From: Candidatus Saccharimonadota bacterium
GTDB taxonomy: Bacteria > Patescibacteriota > Saccharimonadia > Saccharimonadales > Saccharimonadaceae
Reading direction: 5' to 3'
Length of the DNA stretch: 53,896 nucleotides
Assembly: GCA_017510705.1 (NCBI GenBank)
Contig: JAFWMO010000015.1
Coordinates: forward strand, 1 to 53,896
Below the pieces are notes generated by a model. That model was not told the origin of the DNA. It saw only the letters and a list, made by a program, of their open reading frames with translations, and did no database searches. The position numbers and the translations under genes were made by a program. Shown here in pieces: positions 9,547 through 14,199 of the stretch. Each line of letters begins with the position of its first letter. The stretch's first letter is position 1.

Positions 9547-11169
9547 ATGGATGAGAGTGAGATACAGCGGAAGAGGCGTGAAAACGAAGAATTAGCCACT
9601 GCTGGTAGGGCTCGCATTTTGGGCTTACCGTATCTTGATACGCGTGAGTTTGAAAATGAAATTCCACTCACGGAGCCGTTTATTAGCACCCAAGAGATGC
9701 ACAAGGATTATATTATTCCTTTACAAAAAGGTGGTGGAGAAGAGCATTACCAATTTATGGTGACAAGCCAGACGCCGAGGTCGCTTATTCAGAGGATGCG
9801 ACAGGAGTATACAGACAAAGGCAAAAAGGCGGATTTTTTCTTGATTTCCAATTCAGCTTATAAAGTATTTATGTTGCGTTATGACCCGCCGGTAGAGATT
9901 CATTATGATGACATTAAGATTGGTGGTGAGGGAGATTCCGAGACGATTGCTTCGGTGTCCGAAACGTTGAACCAAGTTTCTACGGAAAAGATTTTTGATT
10001 TTTTGATAGACCAGGCTGATAAACTTGGTGCTTCTGATATTCATATTGAAAATATGCGTGGAGAAATAAGGATAAGGATGCGCGTGGACGGTATTTTGCA
10101 TCCGGTGGCGGATATAGACAAAGATAAATACCGAATTTTTATGGGTGAGCTGAGCTCGCGGGCGAATGTTTCAACTGCTTCCAACAAGCCGCAATCTGGG
10201 CATATGCAGAAGGAAATTACGAGAGACGGCGCAACGCATATTCTTAACATTCGTGTGGAAACTATCCCGACTATGTATGGGCAAGATGCGGTGCTAAGGC
10301 TTTTTAACTTTGATGAGTCATTACTAAATCTGGATTTTTTGGGTCTTTCCAAAGAGGAACGGGCAGAGATTGATGAAGTAATTTCGCATCCGAGAGGATT
10401 GGTGCTAATGGTAGGCCCAACTGGCTCTGGTAAATCTACTACGCTTTATTCTATGTTGAACGCACTCAACACTACGGATCGTAAAATCATTACACTTGAG
10501 GACCCGATTGAATATGGGATTACGGGGATTTCGCAGATTCCGGTAAATACAAACGCGGGTGGTTCGTTTGCGGAGGGGCTTAGGAGTGTACTTCGTCTTG
10601 ATCCGGATGTAGTGATGGTGGGCGAGATTCGTGATGCTGATACGGCAAAAACTGCAATACAGGCGTCTATCACTGGGCATTTGGTTTTGTCGTCTTTCCA
10701 TGCAAATTCTACGGCGGCGGCATTTTCGCGCATGATTGACCTTATAGGTGTGAATCCGATTTTTGCAAGTTCTATTAGGCTAGTAATTGCACAGCGGCTA
10801 GTACGAAAATTGTCTGACAATAAGAAGGCGCGTCCGGCTACAGAGGCGGAAGCAAAGTATATCCGTGAAGTGCTTTCAACGGCTTCACAGGAAAAATTAT
10901 CAGGAGTGGATTTAGAAAACATTACGCTTTATGACCCGGTAGTGACAGAAGACGATCCGTTTGGGTATGTTGGGCGAACGGTTTTGATGGAACAACTGGT
11001 GGTAACGGAAGATGTGCAGGCGTTTATCCGTGGCGATGTGGCAGATATTAATACTGAAGCGATAGAAAAAGTGGCAAAGCATAATGGGATGCTGACATTG
11101 GAACAAAAAGGTGTGCTACTTGCGCTGAAGGGCGAAACGACGCTAGAAGAAGTGTCGCGAGTGATATAA
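9547..11169 (+). CDS. pilB: Type IV pilus extension ATPase PilB/GspE family
   Basis: 540 residues. An N-terminal T2SSE-like region precedes the hexameric ATPase core: SDIHIENMRGEIRIRMRVDG, Walker A GPTGSGKST near residue 289, Asp box LEDPIEYGI, Walker B VVMVGEIRDADTA near 355, and HANST. It powers pilin polymerisation at the inner face of the membrane. The C-terminal tetracysteine zinc site of classical PilB/GspE is missing. TATAAT (9535-9540) is six bases before ATG: leaderless. The cassette array starts directly after its stop, tail to tail. Confidence 0.93.
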   Translation: MDESEIQRKRRENEELATAGRARILGLPYLDTREFENEIPLTEPFISTQEMHKDYIIPLQKGGGEEHYQFMVTSQTPRSLIQRMRQEYTDKGKKADFFLISNSAYKVFMLRYDPPVEIHYDDIKIGGEGDSETIASVSETLNQVSTEKIFDFLIDQADKLGASDIHIENMRGEIRIRMRVDGILHPVADIDKDKYRIFMGELSSRANVSTASNKPQSGHMQKEITRDGATHILNIRVETIPTMYGQDAVLRLFNFDESLLNLDFLGLSKEERAEIDEVISHPRGLVLMVGPTGSGKSTTLYSMLNALNTTDRKIITLEDPIEYGITGISQIPVNTNAGGSFAEGLRSVLRLDPDVVMVGEIRDADTAKTAIQASITGHLVLSSFHANSTAAAFSRMIDLIGVNPIFASSIRLVIAQRLVRKLSDNKKARPATEAEAKYIREVLSTASQEKLSGVDLENITLYDPVVTEDDPFGYVGRTVLMEQLVVTEDVQAFIRGDVADINTEAIEKVAKHNGMLTLEQKGVLLALKGETTLEEVSRVI

Positions 11170-11179
11170 GTTTTTGCGG

Positions 11180-11397
11180 GCTGGGTAGCGGACGGTCCTT
11201 CCGTCGTACCTATTGCTGCTGTTGGCAGGAGTGACGCTCGTGCTGTTGAAGCCCAGGAAGTAAGCGCTGGAGCTACTATACACAGTACTAGACCAGAAGT
11301 ACCCGAGGTTGCCTGGGTTGCTCAAAGCATCCGAGTACACGTTGCCCGCCCGGTTGAAGTATAAAGGAGCAACAAATAGTCCTTGGTCTCTGCCTTG
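11180..11397 (-). other. Cassette B1 (silent FISUMP C-terminus)
   Basis: Reverse-strand B-family cassette, lying tail to tail with pilB. The usual terminal RC(L) is RYP, Tyr replacing Cys by TGC to TAC. The frame continues past the cassette to a stop inside the pilB 3' end. Its 5' anchor abuts that of A1 head to head. Confidence 0.85.
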
Positions 11398-11404
11398 ATA
11401 TTCT

Positions 11405-11620
11405 AATACCGAAGATAAAGGTTTTGTCTATAGCCCACTATTCTTCGTCCGCGGAGGCCTCATCGCCAGTCGCACTTTGCTCAACGCAGGTTACAATGGC
11501 TACTATTGGTCTAGCACTGTGCAGTCCGCTACCGTCGCCCGTCTCTTGAATTTCTCTAGTGGTGGTTCCAATACGCAGTATAACTACAACCGGTACCTCG
11601 GATTTTTTCTCCGCTGCCTA
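11405..11620 (+). other. Cassette A1 (silent FISUMP C-terminus)
   Basis: Forward A-family cassette with AATACCGAAGATAAAGG at its 5' end and CTCCGCTGCCTA at its 3' end. Compared with A2 it differs almost only at NNY codons. Confidence 0.87.
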
Positions 11621-11623
11621 CCC

Positions 11624-11840
11624 TGCCACCGGAGATAAGGGTTTTACTGCTAGGCCCCTATTCTTTGTGCGTGGAGGATATATCGATGGCCGCATTTTGC
11701 ACTACGCAGGTCTCCGTGGCTATTATTGGTCTAATACCGCCCGGTCTAATACTGATGCTTATTTCTTGCGTTTTACTAGTTCTATTAATCCACAATATAG
11801 CAATGAACGGCGCTATGGTTTTCCTCTCCGCTGCATAGCA
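11624..11840 (+). other. Cassette C1 (divergent A-like)
   Basis: Same length and fold signature (GDKGF, PLFFVRGG, YYWSNT, YGFPLRC) but with many synonymous and non-synonymous differences from family A, including Glu and Gln codons, so it is older. It joins B2 without a gap (TAGCACCAAGG). Confidence 0.83.
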
Positions 11841-12057
11841 CCAAGGCAGAGACCAAGGACTATTTGTTGCTCCTTTATACTTCAACCGGGCGGGTAACGT
11901 GATCTCGGATGCTTTGGATAACCCAGGCCGTAGCGGGTACTTCTGGTCTAGTACTGTGAGCAGTAGCTCCGACGCTTACAACCTGAGCTTCAGCAGCGCA
12001 AACGTCGGTCCTGCCAACAACTACAATAGGTACCTCGGAAGGACCGTCCGCTGCCTA
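11841..12057 (+). other. Cassette B2 (silent FISUMP C-terminus)
   Basis: The only forward B-family cassette. It begins with CCAAGGCAGAGACCAAGG and ends GGACCGTCCGCTGCCTA. The frame runs on after RCLV into non-homologous sequence. Confidence 0.87.
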
Positions 12058-12071
12058 GTTCTAAATATCCC

Positions 12072-12290
12072 AATACCGAAGATAAAGGTTTTGTCTATAG
12101 CCTACTATTCTTCGTCCGCGGAGGCTACATCTACTATCGCTCTTTGAACTACGCAGGTTACAATGGCCACTATTGGTCTAGCACTGTGCAGTCCGATACC
12201 AATGCCCGTTACTTGAGCTTCACTAGTAGTGGTTCCGGTACGCAGAATAGCAACTACCGGAACCCTGGCTTTTCTCTCCGCTGCGTAGCC
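12072..12290 (+). other. Cassette A2 (silent FISUMP C-terminus)
   Basis: Forward A-family cassette, in tandem before A3. With A5 it forms the cleanest pair for codon comparison: 18 codons differ, 15 of them NNY in both. Confidence 0.87.
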
Positions 12291-12298
12291 TATATCCT

Positions 12299-12520
12299 AA
12301 TACTGAAGATAAAGGTTTTGTCTATAGCCCACTATACTTCGTCCGCGGAGGCATCATCTACATTCGCGCTTTGGACAACGCAGGTTATGATGGCCGCTAC
12401 TGGTCTAGCACTACATATTCCGATACATATTCTCGTCGTTTGGTTATTTCTAGTAATGGCCCTACCACGCAAAATAGCAACGGTCGGGCCAACGGTCTTT
12501 CTCTCCGCTGCCTAGCCTGA
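12299..12520 (+). other. Cassette A3 (silent FISUMP C-terminus, with natural stop)
   Basis: A forward A-family cassette, more divergent. It keeps a stop codon right after RCLA (TGA 12518-12520), probably showing the true C-terminus of the expressed protein. Confidence 0.87.
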
Positions 12521-12529
12521 ATTGGTAGT

Positions 12530-12746
12530 TAGGCAGCGGACGGTTCTTCCGCCGTACCTATTGCGGCTGCTGGCGGGATCGACGCTCGTGCTGCCGAAGT
12601 ACAGGTTGTAAGCGCCGGAGCTATTGGACACAGTACTAGACCAGAAGCCCCCGTTGTTGCCTGGGTTGTACAAAGCATCCGAGTTCACATACCCCGCCCG
12701 GTTGAAGTATAAAGGAGCAACAAATAGTCCTTGGTCTCTGCCTTGG
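12530..12746 (-). other. Cassette B3 (silent FISUMP C-terminus)
   Basis: Reverse B-family cassette, tail to tail with A3 and head to head with A4 across about 22 unrelated bases. After RCL its frame ends TTNSG and stop. Confidence 0.87.
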
Positions 12747-12768
12747 GAGGTATAAAACAGCCTACCCC

Positions 12769-12987
12769 AATACCGAAGATAAAGGTTTTGTCTATAGCCC
12801 ACTATTCTTCGTCCGCGGAGGCACTACCTACTCTTACGCCTTGAACAATGCAGGCTACTATGGTTATTATTGGTCTAACACTGTTTCATCCGCTACTGGT
12901 GCTCGTGGCCTAACTTTTGGCAATGGGACTATATCTGCACAAGTAGGTAACTACCGGAACCCTGGCTTTTCTCTCCGCTGCATAGCC
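12769..12987 (+). other. Cassette A4 (silent FISUMP C-terminus)
   Basis: Forward A-family cassette with the most synonymous changes in the family. Its 3' end merges with the 3' end of B4 (CATAGCCAGCGGAC). Confidence 0.86.
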
Positions 12988-13208
12988 AGCGGACGGTCCT
13001 TCCGTAGTACCTACTGCTGTAGCTGTAGTAGTTGGCGGGATTGACGTAGGTGCTGTAGAAGCCCAGGCTGTAAGCGCTGGAACTACTGTACATAGTACTA
13101 GACCAGAAGTACCCGTAGTTGCCTGGGACGCTCAAAGCATCCGAGTTCACGTTGCCCGCCCGGTTGAAGTATAAAGGAGCAACAAATAGTCCTTGGTCTC
13201 TGCCTTGG
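12985..13208 (-). other. Cassette B4 (silent FISUMP C-terminus)
   Basis: Reverse B-family cassette with three extra codons in the loop before RYYGRTV and Trp replacing the terminal Cys (RWL). It follows A5 in tandem on the minus strand. Confidence 0.86.
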
Positions 13209-13210
13209 TA

Positions 13211-13427
13211 CTAGGCAGCGGAGAGATAATCCGTAGTGCCGGTAGTCGCTATTCTGCGTACTGGAACCACCACTATAGAAACGCAAGTTACGGGCGTGGG
13301 TATCGGACTGCACAGTGCTAGACCAATAGGCGCCAAGGTAACCTGCGTAGTTCAAAGTGCGACTGCTGATGGCGCCTCCGCGGACGAAGAATAGTGGGCT
13401 ATAGACAAAACCTTTATCTTCGGTATT
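13211..13427 (-). other. Cassette A5 (silent FISUMP C-terminus)
   Basis: Reverse A-family cassette at the right edge of the array. The 5' anchor ends nine bases before the -10 of the methyltransferase gene, so array and gene do not overlap. The junction A5 to B4 (TAGTACCAAGG) mirrors C1 to B2. Confidence 0.87.
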
Positions 13428-13449
13428 GGTATGTGCTATAATTGGTGTT

Positions 13450-14199
13450 ATGAGTGAAAAGGTTATTTCGGACTATAATGGTTACGATTATAAAAAAGTT
13501 TTTTGGGAAGATGCTGATCGTGAGTATGAGGATCAGGCAGACCGGATGGCAATCAGGAAGTTGTTGCCAAAGCGGATGGAAAAATTTGCCGATATTGGCG
13601 GTGGGTATGGTAGGCTTGCAAATGAATATTTGAAGCGCGCGCGCAAGGTTTATATTTTTGATTATTCTAAAACCGAGCTAAAACAAGCAAAAGAAATTTA
13701 TGGTGACAAGATTGAGACTAAGGCTGGTGATGTTTATGATTTGCCATTTAAAGATAACGAGCTAGATGGACTAATGATGGTGCGTGTGACACATCACCTT
13801 ACTGATCTAAAAAAGGCAATAGAAGAGCTTTATCGTGTATTGAAGCCTGGTGGTGTGGCGGTGATAGAAGTAGCAAACAAACGAACTTTGCCAAAAATGG
13901 CAAGGTATCTTACTGGGCGTTCCAAGGTGAACCCGTTTGACAAAAAAGTTGCGAACTATAAAGATATTGCCAAGAGTGGATTTTATAATTATCATCCAAA
14001 ATATGTGGAAGAGATTTTTGAGAAGACAGGATTTAAACGTGAGAAAGTTTTGTCTGTGTCTAATTTTCGTAGCAAGACTTTAAAGAAAGTTTTTAAGACT
14101 AAGAATCTTGTAAAAATGGAAAATTCTGCGCAGCAAGTTTTGGCGCCGATTAGATTTGCGCCGTCTATCTATTATAAGTTGAGAAAACCTGAGGAATAA
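13450..14199 (+). CDS. Class I SAM-dependent methyltransferase
   Basis: 249 residues with motif I FADIGGGYGRLA, an acidic second strand (YIFDYS), AGDVYDLPF and the post-motif block RVLKPGGVAVIEV of the Methyltransf_11 (UbiE/SmtA-like) group. The substrate cannot be read from sequence. The start at 13450 (MSEKVISDY) is preferred to an upstream ATG at 13426 inside the cassette edge, because TATAAT (13437-13442) lies seven bases before it and would lie inside the longer frame. The mRNA should be leaderless. A tRNA gene follows. Confidence 0.88.
   Translation: MSEKVISDYNGYDYKKVFWEDADREYEDQADRMAIRKLLPKRMEKFADIGGGYGRLANEYLKRARKVYIFDYSKTELKQAKEIYGDKIETKAGDVYDLPFKDNELDGLMMVRVTHHLTDLKKAIEELYRVLKPGGVAVIEVANKRTLPKMARYLTGRSKVNPFDKKVANYKDIAKSGFYNYHPKYVEEIFEKTGFKREKVLSVSNFRSKTLKKVFKTKNLVKMENSAQQVLAPIRFAPSIYYKLRKPEE

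Follow-up and report, generated by a model that had tools for sequence, protein, structure and literature searches.

The silent cassette array

The window, that is, the whole stretch of 53,896 nucleotides analyzed here, represents contig C4 of a draft genome (G000; 658 kb in 19 contigs, 91%-complete). A PilB/GspE-type ATPase gene (positions 9547-11169, forward strand, 540 aa), whose name derives from the motif GPTGSGKSTT and not from a profile search, lies upstream of the array, and a methyltransferase-like gene (13451-14199, forward strand), named from reading of the sequence, lies downstream. With the cassettes of the initial annotation as queries, nhmmer recovered ten cassettes in the window, and no more, at 11180-13432 (E about 1e-50 to 1e-65). 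The annotation had described ten start-less segments in both orientations, distributed among families A, B and C, and exactly this number was recovered, with five A, four B and one C cassette; the array end, given there as 13427, is now placed at 13432.

The first silent VR cassette belongs to family B and lies on the reverse strand (11180-11397), with 10 nt between the pilB stop and its 3′ end. It is followed on the forward strand by an A cassette (11399-11621), which has its 3′ half in common with the cassette C13:26023-26239, then by the single silent VR-like cassette of family C (11619-11839), a B cassette (11842-12058) and two A cassettes (12066-12289 and 12293-12516). A reverse-strand B cassette (12530-12748) stands head-to-head with a forward A cassette (12763-12986), which is itself tail-to-tail with a further reverse-strand B cassette (12983-13208) carrying an in-frame insertion of 9 nt. 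The last cassette, of family A, occupies 13211-13432 on the reverse strand.

All ten are 217-226 bp long and start-less, and none has a gene-making start codon upstream of the constant 5′ segment. The repeats of the window (214-227 nt, 70-87% identity, both orientations) are far beyond chance. The proposal of a silent store with constant ends, variable middles and no starts agrees with the cassette sequences.

Full-length genes with the same ends

Full-length genes ending in the A or B anchor had been predicted elsewhere in the genome, and their absence would have counted against the proposal. Three full-length secreted genes, ending in the A, B and C anchors, were found: VP-A at C6:1-1654, VP-B at C13:1-1648 and VP-C at C2:1-1545 (L011). 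Their proteins are secreted, as read from the N-terminal sequence, and have a C-terminal FISUMP domain. The related full-length proteins match the FISUMP profile TIGR02145 at 36-38 bits, just under the cut-off of 41.65, and a sister gene passes it. The PDB sequence search with a variable protein gave no match, and the fold search with a full variable protein returned just middling pilus-like matches to its N-terminal part. The modeled FISUMP domain of a congener (pLDDT 69) aligned with Lcl CTD (Z 7.0), TvpA (Z 6.3) and TaqVP (Z 4.9), and C-type-lectin folds appeared in many top rows, every Z being below 8. For an episymbiont, a role in host-cell contact is plausible.

In each of the three genes the contig ends within the VR; the VR is intact in the full-length genes of congeners. 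The draft has 38 contig ends, twelve of which fall in, or at most 11 bases from, a cassette or VR. Breaks affect 3 of 3 gene VRs, but among the roughly 50 silent copies only about 6 (P 0.003). Population heterogeneity limited mainly to the expressed VRs would produce such a pattern, although plain repeats can also cause contig breaks. The overlap between C13 and C5 is 65 nt and exact, that between the ends of C6 and C16 is 141 nt with one mismatch, and both DGR loci described below were put together across contig gaps via these overlaps. Gene conversion was ruled out as the source of the near-identity of the C6 and C16 ends, which is a contig overlap of one gene, and likewise for the C2 end and the C9 start.

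One VR haplotype (C16:2-141, L020; C11:45730-45869, L021; C8:38920-39066, L023) is situated behind two different upstream flanks and continues into C8; one of these two flanks has 76 nt of extra VP-A sequence. This points either to a duplicated allele or to structural variation within the population.

Template repeats and adenine-specific change

The template repeat TR-A (C16:8087-8271, beside RT-A) reads NINSRTLNNAGYNGNYW...NNNNRNNGFSLRCL, and TR-B (C5:2319-2496, beside RT-B) reads NVNSDALNNPGNNGNFW...NNNNRYNGRTVRCL; both have asparagine (AAY) codons where the other copies vary. RT-A and RT-B share the motifs IGNLTSQ and YVDD, match RVT_1 at 1e-12 and 8e-10, respectively, and are the only two matches for this RT in the genome, with 62% identity. 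The locus order is the same in both DGRs, namely gene VR, accessory ORF, RT and TR, with A on C16/C6 and B on C5/C13. The accessory ORF of 274 or 283 aa (L015:236-1087; L020:9480-10304) has a counterpart of 281 aa in the congener G009. It matches nothing in Pfam or NCBIfam and nothing convincingly in PHROGs, and is possibly a new DGR accessory protein.

Adenines of the TR are substituted in the cassettes at 39% (A) and 38% (B), against 6-11% for C, G and T positions. Similar values were obtained for the congeners G113 (43% vs 5-7%) and G013 (44% vs 14-26%). The template repeats, the adjacent RTs and the adenine-specific change together identify the A and B cassettes as VRs written by two DGRs, and of this part of the reading we are nearly certain. 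The initial annotation had taken pilS and vls as its models; the diversity of A and B, however, was generated by the two DGRs and not by recombination among cassettes as in those systems. A classical store of that kind, varying solely by segmental gene conversion with no retroelement mutagenesis, would explain the constant ends, the variable middles, the start-less copies and the full-length genes with the same ends, and could still fit family C. For families A and B it is already contradicted by the TRs, the RTs and the adenine-specific change; moreover, no silent cassette matches the expressed VRs, and we regard this explanation as very improbable.

At AAY codons Tyr is enriched and Cys depleted (3 Cys vs about 93 expected). 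We set this skew aside as a sign of selection because the BPP-1 RT is itself biased at AAC, favoring Tyr, Ser and Asp (PMC12875486).

Family C, which comprises the gene at C2:1-1545 and the cassettes C2:16814-17040, C9:25691-25924, C13:25785-26011 and 11619-11839 of the window, has variable length and varies at non-adenine positions. No template repeat for it was found in the draft genome, and its variation may have an origin different from that of A and B.

Silent copies across the genome

The window-cassette query matches 79 stretches in the genome. In these fetched stretches nhmmer delimits about 50 silent cassettes at about 15 intergenic places, the window array included, besides the two template repeats and the VRs of the three genes. 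The silent copies sit between genes, often immediately behind a stop codon, and 44 of the 46 full-length cassettes keep an open frame.

Where do these copies come from? A and B cassettes begin 42-46 nt upstream of the template start, with a segment that is present in the genes and absent from the template. Among the 45 silent records of families A and B, which include contig-end fragments, 41 carry it. This gene-only segment indicates that the cassettes descend from gene 3′ ends and are not direct cDNA insertions; judged from these sequence comparisons, gene 3′ ends have been copied to intergenic places as start-less cassettes.

The inverted repeat CTAGCCCGCTAG at the stop is common to VR-A, VR-B, TR-A and TR-B, and most silent cassettes are without it, ending at the stop. 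Target recognition in BPP-1 depends on a hairpin located behind the VR (PMC3240598). By analogy, the lack of the repeat probably makes most silent cassettes poor targets for homing.

Rewriting, exchange and constraint

The unusual junction TGCATGGTCCTGGCAG is common to the C-B-A modules of C2 and C9 and to the B-A module of C13, and several head-to-head B/A modules have AAAACAGCC in common. Module copies remain 92-94% identical at non-adenine sites, and the variable-site identity within junction-sharing modules is 0.29-0.59 versus a background of 0.34-0.35. Shared junctions combined with near-background VR identity show that VR content was replaced after module duplication.

Such replacement could mean that the silent cassettes are themselves DGR targets, with mutagenised cDNA homing in place and nothing stored from genes. 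Duplicated modules with preserved junctions and different VRs, identity retained at non-adenine sites, and adenine-limited change in nearly all A and B cassettes, with almost unique haplotypes, are all in favor of this explanation. However, most cassettes lack the inverted repeat of the VRs and TRs, a structure of the kind that BPP-1 needs (PMC3240598); most of them assemble unbroken whereas all three gene VRs break; and private changes persist in silent cassettes. We therefore consider direct homing rather unlikely.

Common blocks join three informative pairs of distant cassettes in this genome, one further pair having been left out as a contig overlap. Two of the three clearly exceed the shuffle null, while the third is at the null's largest value (non-template bases) but is 94% identical over the overlap. 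Block-sharing pairs above the null number nine in G013, mosaics included, and seven in G030. The cassette C9:481-697 has a C anchor fused to an A VR. Exchange between cassettes happens, but it is rare.

In the draft genome, where some copies may be missing, VR-A and VR-B match none of the silent cassettes, the best variable-site identity being 0.54 for VR-A and 0.53 for VR-B. Transfer from cassette to gene was seen nowhere in the genomes compared. The full-length genes envisaged earlier as recipients of the cassettes thus exist, but their current VR-A and VR-B are neither copies nor mosaics of any silent cassette.

Private changes in adenine-free codons of G000 and G113 comprise 35 synonymous and 26 non-synonymous ones versus about 75 non-synonymous expected with transitions weighted 3:1 (P 3.5e-5), and no stops. 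This constraint implies that the copies have passed through, or serve, a translated state, two cases that are indistinguishable here; it could predate the copying, as a legacy of the gene. The private changes of G013 appear neutral (ratio 1.17), and the low N/S of shared changes in that genome was for this reason discarded as evidence of constraint.

These results also bear on the view that the cassettes are decaying, non-functional debris, gene 3′ ends scattered by recombination or by stray capture of cDNA. No starts or expression signals were identified in the cassettes, a few frame breaks are present, and the single copies of G013 are dispersed with neutral private changes, all of which would suit debris. 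It is opposed by the 44 open frames among 46, by adenine-free codons without stops, by the constraint on private changes in G000 and G113, by the recurrence of two-family arrays in other species, and by the accumulation of about 50 copies within a genome of 0.66 Mb. Debris seems to us unlikely, somewhat more so than direct homing.

According to our preferred explanation, two DGRs would reverse-transcribe asparagine-rich template repeats with adenine errors, their activity being deduced from the signature in the sequence, and the mutated product would be written into the 3′ end of the gene for a secreted FISUMP protein, so that the protein tip varies. Gene 3′ ends, together with the 42-46 nt that the template lacks, have been copied to intergenic places as start-less cassettes. 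Homologous recombination via shared anchors and constant template-derived bases would move VR content between copies, as seen between a few cassettes and as presumed between genes and cassettes. Past alleles would be stored in this way, and their return to the genes is possible. Storage by recombination is likely; the whole model, in which DGRs write and recombination stores and perhaps recalls, we regard as about evenly balanced. Its fuller form, in which the DGR invents receptor variants in the expressed gene while recombination keeps them in a recallable archive of silent cassettes, is tentative. If true, it would mean that a genome-reduced bacterium gains a heritable library of tested surface variants.

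Silent stores in related species

An RT of this type was detected in 39 of the 60 sampled congeners. Start-less VR stores were read in sequence in three of them. G113 has about 30 start-less cassettes in two alternating families with its own template and RT. In G013 there are 79 matches, nearly all in short frames and either dispersed or arranged as tail-to-tail pairs; its template and RT lie on its contig C16. G030 has about 110 start-less cassettes of two families, often in inverted pairs (L137-L156, L161-L164). Neither an RT nor a matching full-length gene was found in the G030 draft, and the idea of an RT-free store was dropped, as the target gene is missing too and the genome is a draft.

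Four further congeners (G171, G024, G040, G069) probably have start-less VR stores, as their matches are mostly short frames, judged from frame lengths only. Full-length target genes predominate in G056, G009 and G076, in place of a store. Since anchors, templates and edges differ between species, repeated origin or rebuilding of the store is probable. The two arrangements, start-less store and many full-length targets, appear to be alternatives among congeners, which makes the storage and reuse of variants accessible to comparative tests.

Some tail-to-tail pairs of G013, separated by no more than about 40 nt (C8:20983-21368, L124; C2:93739-94139, L125; C15:8949-9354, L122), form inverted repeats directly downstream of the VR end that might serve as the hairpin needed for DGR homing.

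Comparison with known systems

Neisseria pilS and Borrelia vlsE combine a full-length expressed gene with silent partial copies whose ends are constant and whose middles vary. The present system resembles them in its start-less partial copies with constant ends and a full-length gene with the same ends. In contrast to them, its variation is written by reverse transcription, and the expressed VRs match no silent cassette. DGR variation is regarded as write-only, each homing event overwriting the previous variant. A library of about 50 silent DGR-written variants, recurring with unrelated sequences in related species, suggests that variants can be kept and perhaps reused. The combination of a DGR with a silent store would join two strategies of antigenic variation described so far separately.

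With known DGRs (BPP-1 Mtd, Treponema denticola TvpA, Thermus TaqVP; Patescibacteria DGR clade 2, PMC8144416) the system shares an RT with the IGxxxSQ motif, an adjacent template repeat, adenine-specific change at AAY codons and a VR placed 3′-terminally in the gene for a secreted protein. The predicted VR domain of the congener aligned, at Z below 8 throughout, with C-type-lectin folds, TvpA and TaqVP among them. The system differs from known DGRs in the start-less intergenic VR copies outside the target genes, with their gene-derived 5′ anchors, and in the accessory ORF that matches no family. Multi-VR DGRs have several target genes in 86.7% of cases and one common target ORF in 11.3%, and their most repetitive example has few A-to-N changes (PMC6642488). 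Many VRs are served by one template there as here, but the copies in G000 are start-less, intergenic and adenine-mutagenised.

For Saccharibacteria or TM7 we found no description, in the open-access literature, of silent VR stores or of DGRs combined with silent cassettes; surveys seeking VRs beside the RT or in target ORFs would overlook them. One named relative, a Candidatus Saccharibacteria genome from sheep ileum, has an RT with 49% identity, and the DGR there is ordinary. This relative and the gene content are the grounds for assigning the present genome to Saccharibacteria. The phage DNA search gave no match. One contig of the viral collection IMG/VR (3300035327_000500; L134) carries a template repeat and a 538-aa frame with a similar VR at its end.
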